Numbered from the stretch's first letter, positions 49,892-54,582 are shown. The stretch: DNA of 64,000 nucleotides from Chloroflexota bacterium (GCA_016197225.1 JACPWC010000071.1:78217-142216), one strand, 5' to 3'. Program-made: numbers and translations. Notes: generated from the letters alone by a model not told the origin.

Positions 49892-50794
49892 CTATCCGTC
49901 CGCAAGAACTTCCGCGATTGCACGTCGGGCTATTCCGGCAAGCACTGGATTCGTGTTCTGGTAGTAAGGGAGGGCAATCAACCCGACAGACAGCGCCCAG
50001 CCGCGACCTCGCGCCCAAGTCGCATCATCGACTTGTAGGGTTGCACGGAACACGTCCCGGGTTTCGGCAGACAGGTAGAGCCACGCGGCCATCACGTCGC
50101 AGGCTGGATCACCCACGCCCAGACATCCGAAATCAATGACAGCGATGAGCCGGCCCTGTACAGCCAGCAGATTCCCAGATTGCAGGTCTCCATGGAGCCA
50201 GACGGGCGGGCCGTGCCAAGCTGGCGCCTCGATGGCTGCGTCCCACACAGCGGTCACTGTGTCGGCATCGAGCGTGCCTCGCAGAGTGGCAATTGCGTCG
50301 CGGGTCTCCGTGTCTCGCCTTGCCAGCGGTTCGCCGCGAGAGGAGTTGTGCGGCCCGGGCGGCGGCCCGCCTGTTGCATCAAGTCGTTGCAGGGCAGCTA
50401 TGAATTGCGCTAAATCAATCGCCGCTTGGCGTGGCTCGGCAATGCGCTCGAGGGCCGCATTCTCGCCTTCGAGCCACCGATAAACCGACCAATGCCAGGG
50501 GTAGCCCTCACCGGGTTCACCTTTTGCGAGCGGAACGGGGATGGCGAGCGGCAGGAACGGGGCAAGCCTCGGTAGCCACAAGTGCTCCTCCTCCACCTGT
50601 CCAACGGCCCTATGAATGCGTGGCAATCGCACAACCATGTCATCGCTGAGCCTGTAGAGCGCGTTGTCAGTTCCGGCGGAAGGGACCGGTTCGATGGGAA
50701 GGTCTGCCCACTGCGGAAACTGCGCGGCGAGCAACCGGCCCACGAGGAATGCGTCGGTATCCATCTCGTCGTCATGCATTTTGCCAGCAGTCAT
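49892..50794 (-). CDS. Aminoglycoside phosphotransferase-family kinase
   Basis: A 300-residue APH-fold kinase with the catalytic loop WLHGDLQSGNLL and metal motif VIDFGCLGVGDPACD. Such proteins phosphorylate small molecules; calling it antibiotic resistance would be premature. It is the last of four genes (rsgA, RIO, methyltransferase, this) joined by ATGA overlaps. Confidence 0.88.
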   Translation of the reverse strand: MTAGKMHDDEMDTDAFLVGRLLAAQFPQWADLPIEPVPSAGTDNALYRLSDDMVVRLPRIHRAVGQVEEEHLWLPRLAPFLPLAIPVPLAKGEPGEGYPWHWSVYRWLEGENAALERIAEPRQAAIDLAQFIAALQRLDATGGPPPGPHNSSRGEPLARRDTETRDAIATLRGTLDADTVTAVWDAAIEAPAWHGPPVWLHGDLQSGNLLAVQGRLIAVIDFGCLGVGDPACDVMAAWLYLSAETRDVFRATLQVDDATWARGRGWALSVGLIALPYYQNTNPVLAGIARRAIAEVLADG

Positions 50795-51633
50795 AAGCGC
50801 CTTTCACTGTCGGCAGATTCGTCCTCTTTCCACAGGAACCGCCCAACAGCCAGATATGTTTTGTCATCCTTGAGCGCGGGCGCGATCACGGCGTCGAACT
50901 TGAAGAACTGAATGTCGGTAAGGCCCGCCTGGCGATAAAGCCGGATGACTTGATCGCGGGTGTACCAGCGGGTGGCGGGCGAGCGGCGGTGGAGTTCAGA
51001 GGCAATCACTTCGCCGTTGAGAGTCACTTCGTAGCGGTCTTCAGTATGCTCAAGCTGATTGGCCAGGTCGTACCAGGCCCGCGACCAGCGGCGCACAGTT
51101 GCGCCATCCTCCGGCCTGACCTTCTCGCCCCTGGGTGCCCACTCTGTTTCCGTCGGGCTGCCGTCATCCCAGATGTCCATGAAAGGCATGGCCAGCGTGC
51201 CGCCGGGCAGAAGGTAGGCGAAGAAGCGGCCCATCGCCTCGGCGGCCAAACCCGGATCGGTGAGCAGTTGAAACGAGCTTGAGGGCACGATGATCGTCTG
51301 ATACTTGCGCGGCAAGTCCAGGGACTCCATTCTCTGCTGGAACGTGTTTGGCTTGAGGCCAAGCTTCGCCGCCTTCTGGTGGCAGAGGGCCAGCATCTCC
51401 GGGGAGATGTCCACGCCGTCAATGTCTATTCCCTGCGAGAGGAAATCCAACAGGAGGCGGCCTGTGCCACAGCCCACGTCGAGGGCGGGCTGGCCGTACT
51501 TGCGAATCACTTCGAGGAAGAGAAAGCGGTCTTCCCAGTTGGAAGTGTCGCCGCGAAACAAGTCCCAGGTTGCCGCCATCTGGTCGCGATATTCAAAGTC
51601 TTGTCCGGTGGTAACAACAGCGGTGGTGTTCAT
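50791..51633 (-). CDS. Class I SAM-dependent methyltransferase
   Basis: A 280-residue methyltransferase with SAM motif I ALDVGCGTGRLL, acidic loop VDISPEML and motif IV TIIVPSSSFQLL. Its substrate is unknown. Overlaps the RIO kinase stop and the phosphotransferase start by 4 nt each. Start ATG 51633 follows the overlap; the upstream extension is antisense to other features. Confidence 0.9.
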   Translation of the reverse strand: MNTTAVVTTGQDFEYRDQMAATWDLFRGDTSNWEDRFLFLEVIRKYGQPALDVGCGTGRLLLDFLSQGIDIDGVDISPEMLALCHQKAAKLGLKPNTFQQRMESLDLPRKYQTIIVPSSSFQLLTDPGLAAEAMGRFFAYLLPGGTLAMPFMDIWDDGSPTETEWAPRGEKVRPEDGATVRRWSRAWYDLANQLEHTEDRYEVTLNGEVIASELHRRSPATRWYTRDQVIRLYRQAGLTDIQFFKFDAVIAPALKDDKTYLAVGRFLWKEDESADSERRL

Positions 51634-52583
51634 GCTAACGGTTCCTTTTTTGAAGTGTATTTGTGCCACAAATCGTTCGCCAGTTGCGGCGGGTTGCTCG
51701 CCACGCCGTAGCGGGCAAAGTATTGGCACACCCGCTCCACGTCGCGCCGGAAGATGGCGCGGGCAGACGGGTTGGCTTGCAGGCCGACGACTTGCGGGAA
51801 GTCAATAATCGAGATCGCGCCGTTCCAGTACAGTACGTTGTAAGCCGAGAGGTCGCCGTGCACCCAACCGCACGAGAGCATGATCTCGACGTTCCACATC
51901 AGCCGCTCAAACAGCGGGCGGGCTTCGGCGGAATCCAGCGGCACGTCAATCAACACCGGCGCGGGCATCGTCTCGTCGCCCACGTACTCCATCAACAGCG
52001 CATACTCGTTGTGCTTGAGCGGCTCCGGCACGTCAGCGCCGGCTTCGTGCAGTTGTTGCATGAGGGTGAATTCGTGCATCAACCACGAAGTCTGAGCCGC
52101 CTCCAGCCCCTTGCGCGATTTGCCGGCGATGGCTTTGTGCATGCGCCAGTCGCGGGCGCTGATGGCGTTGCCTTTGGCGTCGAGCATGGCCCGGCCCTGT
52201 TGATACTCGGTTGTGTTTTTGAGAGCGCGGAACTTGCGCGGGCGATACAGCTTGGCGGCGATCAGGTCGCGGCCAGAGTCGGGGTGAGCGGCACAGCAAT
52301 AGACGTTGGCTTCTTTGCCGCCCTTCACCCGCCGGGTCACATCGGCGATAACCTTGCCAAGATAGAACTGGCCGAGATGCTCGATGATCCAGCCCATCTC
52401 TTCGCTTGTCGCGTTCACCGACGGGCTGAAGAGTCGCTCGTTCTTTCCGGCGGCGTCCGGCTCGTAAAGCGAAGCGGCGGCTTCCCATTTGTTCTGTTTG
52501 GGTTTGTGATTCAGCTTGACCCGCCGGGGGCGGCGGTCATCTGTTTGAAGATCCAATTCTTCGTAAGATTCAAGATCGATCAT
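51630..52583 (-). CDS. RIO-family atypical protein kinase
   Basis: A 317-residue RIO1-like kinase/ATPase. Glycine-rich region VKGGKEANVY (86-95), ATP lysine Lys111 (AAKLYR), catalytic loop VHGDLSAYN (His242, Asp244, Asn249) and metal Asp261 (IIDFPQ). RIO proteins mature the small ribosomal subunit in archaea and eukaryotes. Here the gene is overlap-coupled to rsgA, which matures the bacterial 30S subunit, suggesting a related job. That link is inference. Confidence 0.93.
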   Translation of the reverse strand: MIDLESYEELDLQTDDRRPRRVKLNHKPKQNKWEAAASLYEPDAAGKNERLFSPSVNATSEEMGWIIEHLGQFYLGKVIADVTRRVKGGKEANVYCCAAHPDSGRDLIAAKLYRPRKFRALKNTTEYQQGRAMLDAKGNAISARDWRMHKAIAGKSRKGLEAAQTSWLMHEFTLMQQLHEAGADVPEPLKHNEYALLMEYVGDETMPAPVLIDVPLDSAEARPLFERLMWNVEIMLSCGWVHGDLSAYNVLYWNGAISIIDFPQVVGLQANPSARAIFRRDVERVCQYFARYGVASNPPQLANDLWHKYTSKKEPLA

Positions 52584-53581
52584 AGGTTGAAGTACTCTTT
52601 CATGTCCAGGTAACTTTCATATCGTCGGACGGTGACGCCGCCGTTTTCAACAGCGGCTTTGATCGCGCACCCCGGCTCGTGGCTGTGGGTGCAGTCTAGC
52701 CCGAACTGGCACTGGCCGACGTAAGGCCGTAGTTCCGGCAAAAGCGAGGCCAAATCGTCGGAGCCGACATCCCACAGTTTGAACATCCGCAAGCCGGGCG
52801 TATCCACCACACTGCCGCCGAACTCAAGGTCGAACATCTCAAGGTGAGAGGTGGTGTGCCTGCCTTCGCCAGTGTGGGTGTTGACGGCGTTGACGCGCAG
52901 GCCGAGGCCGGGCTGGACGGCATTGAGGAGCGTCGTCTTGCCCACGCCCGACTTGCCGATGAAGGCCGAGAGCTTGCCGCGCAACGCCTCTTTGAGCGAC
53001 GCGATGCCGGTTCCATCTACCGCGCTGGTGAGCAGAGTTGGGTAGCCGAGGCGGCCATACTCTTCGGCAATGAGCGTCAGCGGCTCGGCCTCGTCGGCCA
53101 GGTCGAGCTTGGTGAGGCAGATCAGTGCCGGGATGTTGGCAGCTTCGGCCATCGCCAGGTAACGATCCAGCAGGCGCCACTTAGGATCAGGGTGAACCGG
53201 AAAGACGGCCACCACCTGGTCAACGTTGGCGACGATCACTTGCTCCTGTGGGTGCTTGCCTGCCACTTCCGCCGTCGGTCGCGCCAGCTTGTTGCGGCGC
53301 GGGAGGACGTCGGTGATGACGCCCGTGCCGTGGTCGGCCTCGACGAAGCTGACGCAGTCGCCAATGGCAACCGGGTCAACGACGGCGATCTCTTTGACGG
53401 CCTGCACCCGCTTGCCGCGCCGTTTGGGGTCGGTGGGGGCGGCAATGGGGTAGATGAGATTTTTGCGGAGGCGGTTGGAGATCGAACAATCGAAGACCTG
53501 CCCCGCCGCGCGGACAAAGTATTTGCCCAGGAGTTTTTTGAAGACAGTTCCCTGATGAACTGCCTGAGGGTGTTGAGTCAT
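52580..53581 (-). CDS. rsgA: Small-subunit maturation GTPase RsgA
   Basis: A 333-residue circularly permuted GTPase that checks late 30S assembly. It has an N-terminal OB fold, G4 TKLD (157-160), then G1 GKSGVGKT (209-216), G3 DTPG (260-263) and a C-terminal zinc site of Cys291, Cys297, His299 and Cys305 (His301 also nearby). ATG 53581 is chosen with the ribosome-binding site aaggaa. It overlaps the RIO gene. The leader holds stacked hairpins and a 27-codon ORF. Confidence 0.96.
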   Translation of the reverse strand: MTQHPQAVHQGTVFKKLLGKYFVRAAGQVFDCSISNRLRKNLIYPIAAPTDPKRRGKRVQAVKEIAVVDPVAIGDCVSFVEADHGTGVITDVLPRRNKLARPTAEVAGKHPQEQVIVANVDQVVAVFPVHPDPKWRLLDRYLAMAEAANIPALICLTKLDLADEAEPLTLIAEEYGRLGYPTLLTSAVDGTGIASLKEALRGKLSAFIGKSGVGKTTLLNAVQPGLGLRVNAVNTHTGEGRHTTSHLEMFDLEFGGSVVDTPGLRMFKLWDVGSDDLASLLPELRPYVGQCQFGLDCTHSHEPGCAIKAAVENGGVTVRRYESYLDMKEYFNL

Positions 53582-53751
53582 GGTGTTCCTTATCGAAAGC
53601 GGGCAAGTTGCCAACTTGCCCTACGGCGACTTAAAACGTAACGGCCACGAGTCGCCGCATGTTGCCGCTCTCGTGGCCGGTGAATCAAAACGGCCACGGA
53701 GCAGAGCGCGCCCATGGCCGTTGATGGCTAAAGGGTCAGGCTAACGTCAGG
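53582..53751 (-). other. Structured rsgA leader with stacked hairpins
   Basis: Read on the minus strand after the small ORF come GCTAAC/GTTAGC, a cggcca/tggccg stem, a 10-bp stem (plus-strand arms 53642-53651 and about 53670-53679) and finally gggcaagtt/aacttgccc (about 53602-53621) just before the rsgA ribosome-binding site. The last hairpin could hide that site or terminate transcription without a T run. Confidence 0.6.
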
Positions 53752-53835
53752 TTAGCGTTCAGGCGCGGTCAGACAAGACATGATGGATTTCATGCTGGCG
53801 ACAAGTTGAGGGGAGTTGAAGTAAAGGGTTGTCAT
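53752..53835 (-). CDS. 27-residue leader peptide or small protein ahead of rsgA
   Basis: This ORF begins MTTLYFNSPQLVASMKS and ends SCLTAPER. A strong ribosome-binding site (gaaaggagg, 53854-53846) and a good promoter (53898-53869) make translation likely. It may act in cis as a leader peptide for the hairpins that follow, or be a free micro-protein. It contains no run of a single amino acid as in classical attenuators. Confidence 0.6.
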   Translation of the reverse strand: MTTLYFNSPQLVASMKSIMSCLTAPER

Positions 53836-53868
53836 TGTCTGTGCGCCTCCTTTCGATAGGATGCCGCG

Positions 53869-53898
53869 AGTTTAGCACGGTTTAGCGAAGCCTGTCAA
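53869..53898 (-). promoter_or_regulatory. Sigma-70-type promoter of the rsgA operon
   Basis: TTGACA (53898-53893), an 18-bp spacer and TAAACT (53874-53869). Transcription would start near 53862, about 27 nt before the leader ORF. One of the few promoters here with a clear -35. Confidence 0.8.
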
Positions 53899-53924: not shown

Positions 53925-53996
53925 CGCCCCCGGCGCGACTCGAACGCGCATCCTTAGACTTAGAAGGTCTCTGCTCCTCCATTGAGCTACGGGGGC
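53925..53996 (-). tRNA. trnR-TCT: tRNA-Arg (anticodon UCU)
   Basis: A 72-nt cloverleaf on the minus strand. Acceptor GCCCCCG pairs with CGGGGGC, the D arm is GCTC..GAGC, the anticodon loop CTTCTAA gives UCU, and the T arm is GCGCG-TTCGAGT-CGCGC. The outermost anticodon-stem pair is a G-A mismatch. Discriminator G; CCA is not encoded. It reads AGA codons. Confidence 0.95.
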
Positions 53997-54045
53997 CTTT
54001 AACTCTCTGTCAGATTATACTATGGACGTAAAACAGGAGGGTGAA

Positions 54046-54582
54046 ATGCCAATCTGTCATAAATGTGGCACGGAATTTCCCAACAAATTGACGATTGGAG
54101 GTACGACGCGAAACCTCCAATCTAGAAAATTCTGTATTAATTGCTCCCCGTTTGGGAGTCACAATACGAGAAATCTAAATGAGGTAACCGACCACGGGCG
54201 TCGAAAATGTCCTCGGTGCAAGAAGACTTTGCCGATCGAGAATTTTTACAACCGCCGGAGCAAGACAGGGCACTCATCATACTGCAAGCAATGTACTAAC
54301 CTGCAAACCCTTGAGCGACAGCGCGAACTTAAACAGAAAGCTGTCAAGTATAAAGGTGGCAAGTGTGTGCGATGTGGTTACAACCATTACATCGGCGCGC
54401 TGGAATTCCATCACATTGACCCGAACGGAAAGGATGTGACTATTTCGCACCTCAAGCACACAACTTTCAGAAAAATCGTGCTTGAGCTTGATAAGTGTGT
54501 TTTGGTGTGTGCCAACTGCCATCGGGAGATTCACGCCGAATTCAAAGGATTGATCCGCCAACCACTGGCGGAAACAGGTTGA
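54046..54582 (+). CDS. HNH endonuclease-like protein with three zinc-binding regions
   Basis: A 178-residue protein with CxxC pairs at 30-33 and 55-58, CKQC at 80-83, then an HNH fold: CVRC (107-110), FHHIDP (121-126) and CANCHREIH (155-163). Likely a DNA nicking or cleaving enzyme. ATG 54046 has a good ribosome-binding site (aggaggg); ATG 54022 directly abuts a TATACT that is probably its -10. The gene is noticeably more AT-rich than its neighbours and lies beside a tRNA, signs of recent arrival. Its last 13 codons, beyond the HNH fold, lie opposite the 3' end of the moaD-like gene. Confidence 0.87.
   Translation: MPICHKCGTEFPNKLTIGGTTRNLQSRKFCINCSPFGSHNTRNLNEVTDHGRRKCPRCKKTLPIENFYNRRSKTGHSSYCKQCTNLQTLERQRELKQKAVKYKGGKCVRCGYNHYIGALEFHHIDPNGKDVTISHLKHTTFRKIVLELDKCVLVCANCHREIHAEFKGLIRQPLAETG

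Follow-up and report, generated by a model that had tools for sequence, protein, structure and literature searches.

Here we describe a four-gene operon on the minus strand of a 64,000-nucleotide stretch of DNA from a Chloroflexota bacterium (GCA_016197225.1 JACPWC010000071.1:78217-142216; "the window" denotes this whole stretch), encoding a second RsgA paralog (RsgA2), a RIO-family kinase, a methyltransferase and an APH-family protein. Between the promoter and rsgA2 lies a leader with the architecture of a translation-dependent attenuator, and comparison with related leaders makes it very probable that the attenuator is genuine and defines a shared regulon. Since it precedes RIO and RsgA-paralog genes at separate loci, as well as drug exporter and acetyltransferase genes, RsgA2 and RIO are therefore placed in a translation-inhibition regulon. 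On balance, the four genes are probably an inducible operon for ribosome stress, in which RsgA2 and RIO are candidates for acting on the 30S subunit, and an inducible response to ribosome inhibition is likelier than a role in routine 30S assembly.

Operon organization

The features of the operon and its promoter are as follows.

53869-53898, minus strand: sigma-70-type promoter, TTGACA-18-TAAACT
52580-53581, minus strand: rsgA2 (rsgA), ATG at 53581, 333 aa; second RsgA paralog with GTPase and zinc motifs intact
51630-52583, minus strand: RIO-family kinase/ATPase, 317 aa; Rio1-like fold with N-terminal extension
50791-51633, minus strand: class I S-adenosylmethionine-dependent methyltransferase, 280 aa
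49892-50794, minus strand: APH-family (aminoglycoside-phosphotransferase-like) protein, 300 aa
49399-49848, minus strand: GNAT acetyltransferase, 43 bp past the APH gene

Consecutive genes share ATGA overlaps at 52580-52583 (rsgA/RIO), 51630-51633 (RIO/methyltransferase) and 50791-50794 (methyltransferase/APH). Pfam and NCBIfam profiles recognize RsgA (RsgA_GTPase domain, 1.4e-53; TIGR00157, 211 bits against a cut-off of 100), RIO (PF01163, RIO1 domain, 124 bits against a cut-off of 22), the methyltransferase (Methyltransf_25, 58 bits) and the phosphotransferase (APH, 139 bits). The promoter agrees with the consensus at 10 of 12 positions and has a TG before the -10 element; the scan spanned 4.8 kb, in which 1.3 matches this good are expected by chance. 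An earlier, sequence-only reading had proposed these four families, joined by three ATGA overlaps behind one strong promoter, and the coordinates, profile scores and good consensus match bear this out. It lacked the leader open reading frame (ORF) and attenuator between promoter and rsgA, the second, housekeeping RsgA of the genome, and the downstream GNAT gene, which is possibly on the same transcript.

The leader attenuator

The leader mostly fills the 288 nucleotides before rsgA (53862-53575), with a fold z-score of -6.65 relative to shuffled sequences. Its parts are listed below.

53682-53862, minus strand: leader attenuator element (covariance model R1), 76.7 bits, E 6e-19
53836-53850, minus strand: segment S1, very strong Shine-Dalgarno (SD) of the leader ORF (GGAGGCGCACAGACA), pairs with S2
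53752-53835, minus strand: leader ORF of 27 codons, MTTLYFNSPQLVASMKSIMSCLTAPER; relatives have ~20-codon leader ORFs at the equivalent place
53761-53775, minus strand: segment S2, anti-SD inside the end of the leader ORF
53687-53720, minus strand: first intrinsic-terminator hairpin, S3 (53707-53720) with S4 (53687-53699); compensatory changes in S3:S4 in the alignment
53642-53679, minus strand: second terminator-like hairpin, CGGCCACGAG...CTCGTGGCCG, ahead of a weak T run

The T run after the S3:S4 terminator is short in the window. Five RsgA2 genes, those of the window, G054, SJ819, G276 and G443 (the last lying away from RIO), are preceded by a leader ORF with the same SD and a terminator, and a scan for leader ORFs with terminators over 2.2 Mb of fetched DNA places 61 of its 87 unique matches at most 1.2 kb upstream of RIO or rsgA. 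An alignment of 32 leaders has the pattern GAAAGGAGGCGC-(N)-ATG, about 20 codons, GYGCGCCT close to the end of the ORF (in many cases encoding SAP) and then CGGCCACGGGCGCG...CCGTGG-TTTTT. The leaders contain no obvious single-amino-acid run, which argues against single-amino-acid sensing.

RNAalifold applied to the 32 leaders recovers both S1:S2 (SD:anti-SD) and S3:S4 (terminator) unprompted. The S1:S2 helix is 81.7% paired with a covariation of 0.221 (shuffled, 0.172), and in S2:S3 93.5% of cells are paired with a covariation of 0.326 (shuffled, 0.236); none of 500 shuffles reached these covariation values for either helix, and slid versions of the helices scored lower. Covariation in the alignment thus supports three mutually exclusive helices, which would make up the predicted switch.

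Transcription from the promoter at 53898 would enter the leader with its 27-codon ORF. If the ORF were not translated, S1:S2 would form and S3:S4 would terminate transcription; under normal translation the ribosome would cover S2, and S3:S4 would again terminate. A ribosome stalled near the start of the ORF would occupy S1, leaving S2 to pair with S3, so that the terminator would be lost and rsgA2-RIO-methyltransferase-APH would be transcribed.

The R1 match at 53682-53862 is the only convincing one in the 64-kb window. The window leader is one row of the 32 used to build R1, and its element was also found model-free. Rfam 15 gives no match at 53682-53862 (elsewhere in the window it finds only a tRNA and a weak sub-threshold match), and no matching Chloroflexota leader was found in the literature.

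Some further features of the leaders stand apart from this switch. The perfect palindrome GGGCAAGTTGGCAACTTGCCC (53600-53624), just before rsgA, was considered as a part of the switch and rejected, being a dispersed repeat of the genus that also occurs elsewhere in G000 (the source genome), G001 and G003. Over 9 nucleotides, UAUCGAAAG at the 5' end of the transcript (53836-53862) is the exact complement of CUUUCGAUA (53590-53600), before the rsgA ribosome-binding site; this complementarity, noted in the window leader, might form a second layer of control. In large-genome Chloroflexota (family f41), an ORF scan returned divergent leaders upstream of RIO (L031, L038, L040, L047 and L050), several with a MMRKE(I/F)...SERAIAASWHP-like peptide; they were not used in R1 and are possibly a second attenuator class.

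Genes sharing the attenuator

R1 matches upstream of 54 of the 133 RIO loci with enough upstream sequence, and on RsgA paralogs that do not adjoin RIO (L233, L235, L250, L252 and L253); none of 38 housekeeping-type rsgA loci has a match. Among 45 whole genomes searched with R1, 33 have matches, with one to seven copies each. The gene context of ~40 copies not next to RIO or RsgA2 was fetched: 12 of these loci have MsbA-type heterodimeric ABC exporters downstream of the element, about 8 have DrrA-type ABC exporters, about 14 have GNAT acetyltransferases (often in tandem or with MFS pumps) and 2 have MFS pumps. R1 also precedes another RsgA in the RIO-negative genome G010 and, at weak score, one leucyl-tRNA synthetase. 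A weak match (28 bits) lies before an ABC-F gene (G017 C38:62461-62620, L353); ABC-F proteins are a class of ribosome-protection ATPases. The source genome has three copies: that of the window, one before an MsbA-type ABC exporter pair (C66:54041-54208, L314), and one before a DrrA-like ABC gene and a GNAT gene (C27:7433-7617, L315).

Four elements expected of a ribosome-mediated transcription attenuator of translation-inhibitor resistance genes are found here: an SD and a putative leader ORF of ~20-27 codons, an intrinsic terminator, a mutually exclusive antiterminator and target genes that are, by family, of resistance type.

RsgA2 and RIO proteins

The source genome has two RsgA genes, the window copy and one on contig C38 (221 bits). 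In a tree of 64 RsgA proteins the C38 copy falls among the main RsgA proteins of related genomes, in a clade without any RIO-linked member, while the window RsgA falls in a separate 10-row clade (Shimodaira-Hasegawa-like approximate likelihood ratio test, SH-aLRT, 99) and is not the housekeeping ortholog of the order. Like RsgA/YjeQ/CpgA proteins it has an OB domain, an intact zinc motif (Cys/Cys-x-His/Cys) and the circularly permuted GTPase motifs (TKLD, TSA, GKSGVGKT, GRHTT and DTPG), with G1-G5 and the catalytic His retained; it differs from them in its paralog clade, apart from the order's housekeeping RsgA, and in an OB-domain insertion of ~26 residues.

The window RIO retains the catalytic and metal-binding motifs (GKEA, Lys111, H-G-D-L-S-A-Y-N and I-D-F-P-Q). 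The best structural matches to its AlphaFold model (mean predicted local distance difference test score, pLDDT, 86.6) are Rio1 proteins, among them that of Archaeoglobus and the one seen on human pre-40S particles. Rio1 structures rank first and the winged-helix pattern is not seen in the N-terminus of the model, which places the protein outside the RIO2 subfamily. It shares the RIO domain, the catalytic motifs and the Rio1-like predicted fold with archaeal and eukaryotic Rio1 and with PA4780-family RIO1-like kinases (NF041645), but it scores only 151 bits against the NF041645 equivalog cut-off of 350, has a basic N-terminal extension of ~75 residues (mostly of low model confidence), and is part of the attenuator regulon. 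RIO occurs in 84 of 400 Chloroflexota genomes and in 140 of 396 genomes of the window's class, and most relatives are without it.

Conservation of the rsgA-RIO pairing

The survey of the pairing covered 80 named records and ~196 genomes with RIO for which the position of RsgA was found too; it excludes G722, which is also RIO-positive, and nine others that are weak or fragmentary. Seven loci, from several Chloroflexota families, have rsgA and RIO side by side, always on the same strand and in both gene orders. With rsgA first, the genes are joined by the ATGA overlap in the window and separated by 1 bp in G054, 3 bp in SJ819, 131 bp in LM3-B4.2 and 146 bp in G380; with RIO first, they occur in Gw_Eff_bin_337 (8-nt overlap) and G740. 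The G528 contig has the same length and arrangement as Gw_Eff_bin_337, and the two were counted once. In five more loci (G789, G775, G749, G763 and G456) rsgA lies 4-14 kb from RIO on the same strand. Between the two genes are, in four f20 genomes, ABC exporters, a ~120-residue orphan and, variably, AadA-like, GNAT, hydrolase and APH genes, and, in G456, an ABC exporter pair.

Adjacency is rare, at about 5% of RIO loci, and most RIO genes have no neighbouring rsgA. By the author's estimate, which is not a simulation, ~0.07 same-strand adjacent cases are expected by chance in ~196 genomes, against 5 seen and a further 2 from an independent scan. The paired RsgAs fall in three clades of the RsgA tree and are never the housekeeping copy in genomes with two RsgAs, and in the RIO tree the three paired RIOs that were placed lie scattered; the linkage therefore arose more than once. 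An orthologous operon conserved across relatives was rejected, as the same-genus genome G002 carries RIO without rsgA. Outside Chloroflexota, three of ten RIO matches in a plasmid collection were opened: two annotated regions have no nearby rsgA, and the third record is unannotated there. The pairing is thus real but rare.

The sequence-only reading had taken the coupling of the two genes as a sign of a bacterial RIO role in small-subunit assembly, to be abandoned if the pairing were not conserved in related genomes. The pairing does recur (seven adjacent loci, and five more within 15 kb), and the link between RIO and RsgA gains further from the attenuator common to non-neighbouring RIO and RsgA-paralog genes. 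The part that concerns ordinary 30S assembly finds no support, given the rarity of the pairing, the absence of the housekeeping RsgA from it in genomes with two RsgAs, and the presence of the common attenuator otherwise on drug-efflux and acetyltransferase genes, which suggests an inducible role in translation stress instead.

Two observations concern the neighbours of these genes. In the f20 clusters, a conserved protein of 115-133 residues is encoded upstream of RsgA-B and adjoins it directly in two of four (L228:5271-5672, L229:10260-10610, L230:13815-14165 and L231:16284-16631); one copy was scanned and has no Pfam or NCBIfam match. In three Chloroflexota genomes of one lineage (L155, L208 and L209), a gene of the RsmE family (PF04452, 16S rRNA methyltransferase-type) lies 139-164 bp downstream of RIO.

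Methyltransferase and APH proteins

The nearest solved relatives of the window methyltransferase are small-molecule methyltransferases, and its closest homologs elsewhere (46-52%) are unlinked to RIO or rsgA. A conserved methyltransferase partner was accordingly dropped, and its earlier proposal as an enzyme modifying rRNA or ribosomal proteins is unsupported. A conserved APH partner was likewise dropped, BLAST giving no APH homolog at the other fetched RIO/RsgA loci. For both proteins, drug- or metabolite-modifying roles fit better than rRNA modification.

APH-family genes as a group are frequent near RIO/RsgA clusters, with about 12 within 15 kb in 6 of 9 genomes, compared with 4-16 per whole genome; this enrichment was noticed after the fact. 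Dense groups surround the RIO/RsgA-B cluster in G749 (five, C62:30566-43106) and G763 (three, C13:132902-144702).

Proposed role and alternatives

In the proposed ribosome-stress operon, RsgA2 would be a stress-specific RsgA acting on 30S subunits, as HflXr is a resistance-specific HflX, RIO would be its ATPase/kinase partner, with either the 30S subunit or RsgA2 as target, and the methyltransferase and APH proteins would be accessory modifying enzymes. Joint action of RsgA2 and RIO on the 30S subunit is possible though short of probable. More tentatively, Chloroflexota RIO kinases in general may be inducible factors for antibiotic tolerance that work together with RsgA paralogs on 30S subunits stalled by a drug, a form of kinase/GTPase ribosome protection under a new attenuator class. 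An apparently stall-sensing switch common to RIO, spare RsgA, drug pumps and acetyltransferases gives bacterial RIO kinases a specific, testable role. If the proposal is true, the HflXr principle, in which a ribosome GTPase is copied and put under attenuation, extends to the small subunit and gains a kinase. The attenuator, which has no Rfam match, also flags genes of intrinsic resistance type in a phylum for which experimental tools are scarce.

Several points weigh against this proposal. In equilibrium folding with S1 blocked, the terminator falls and S2:S3 rises in only 14 of the 32 leaders, and the window leader switches under only one of the two blocking schemes; with S2 blocked, the terminator is never lowered by more than 0.3 in the 32 leaders, and the folding as a whole is consistent with the attenuator model, not proof of it. 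R1 matches fewer than half of RIO loci; in some lineages the leader is a different one, and in others no leader was detected. Because RIO/RsgA leaders served as its training set, R1 is partly bound to match them, and the independent evidence comes from the model-free scans and the non-RIO matches. We infer antibiotic induction from leader architecture and regulon content. In the literature, no established function was found for bacterial RIO kinases, and no paper connecting RIO with RsgA.

Among the closest known systems is hflXr (lmo0762) of Listeria monocytogenes, which encodes a duplicate ribosome GTPase that is made when ribosomes stall (PMC6310831). The two are alike in the second GTPase copy and in a small leader ORF with alternative RNA structures and a terminator, where stall-dependent read-through is known for hflXr and inferred here. 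They differ in that HflX acts on 70S/50S and RsgA on 30S (the window GTPase is an RsgA and outside the HflX family, and hence not an HflXr), in the absence of a kinase partner from hflXr, and in the RLR motif of the hflXr leader, which is not seen in the window leader. The vmlR attenuator of Bacillus subtilis follows a similar anti-antiterminator/antiterminator/terminator logic that hinges on a translated upstream ORF (PMC9226507), but this ORF has three codons, the sequence is unrelated and the controlled gene is an ABC-F gene.

A different precedent underlies the alternative that RIO is a dedicated RsgA regulator, phosphorylating RsgA2 to tune its GTPase activity and 30S binding; it is unlikely, and compatible with the ribosome-stress operon. 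The prpC-prkC-cpgA cluster, conserved in Firmicutes, likewise has a protein kinase gene beside rsgA (cpgA in B. subtilis), and its kinase PrkC phosphorylates its GTPase CpgA at Thr166 (PMC6449344); the intact active-site residues of RIO and the overlap of the rsgA and RIO genes in both orders agree with such a relationship. PrkC, however, is a Hanks-type transmembrane kinase where the window has RIO, CpgA is a housekeeping RsgA, and the phosphosite is not conserved, the Thr166 position being Leu204 in the window RsgA with Ser205 adjacent (read from the alignment); the window pair is thus not of the PrkC-CpgA type. RIO and RsgA paralogs are moreover found without each other in many genomes, and no description of such an attenuator was found for prpC-prkC-cpgA in the literature consulted.

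It is rather improbable that RIO is a small-molecule (drug) kinase in a cluster of drug-modifying enzymes, with RsgA2 helping independently. RIO and APH kinases have distantly related folds (PMC1821047), and the neighbours of the RIO/RsgA clusters include AadA-like, GNAT, methyltransferase and esterase-like genes in addition to the enriched APH-family genes; RIO nevertheless keeps Rio1-type motifs and fold, unlike APH enzymes, and the enrichment carries the after-the-fact caveat given above.

The constitutive 30S maturation operon of the sequence-only reading draws on RsgA being a 30S factor, on the closeness of the RIO fold to Rio1, among others the Rio1 of human pre-40S particles, and on the RsmE-family gene downstream of RIO in one other lineage. 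It is improbable, since a housekeeping RsgA is present elsewhere in the genome, RIO occurs in a minority of the phylum (84/400) and of the class (140/396), and the operon is preceded by an attenuator with a terminator whose other co-regulated genes are pumps and acetyltransferases. Ordinary accessory-gene shuffling, in which the adjacency is meaningless, would suit the figure of about 5% and the otherwise variable gene context of RIO, and is very improbable given the excess over chance (5 cases, plus 2 from the independent scan, against ~0.07) and the attenuator common to unlinked loci.

Neighbouring features

Beyond the promoter, Rfam identifies a tRNA at 53925-53996. On the plus strand, an ORF at 54022-54582 encodes 186 residues with CxxC pairs and an HNH-like C-terminus (EFHHID...CANCHREIH), and has no Pfam match at E 0.001.

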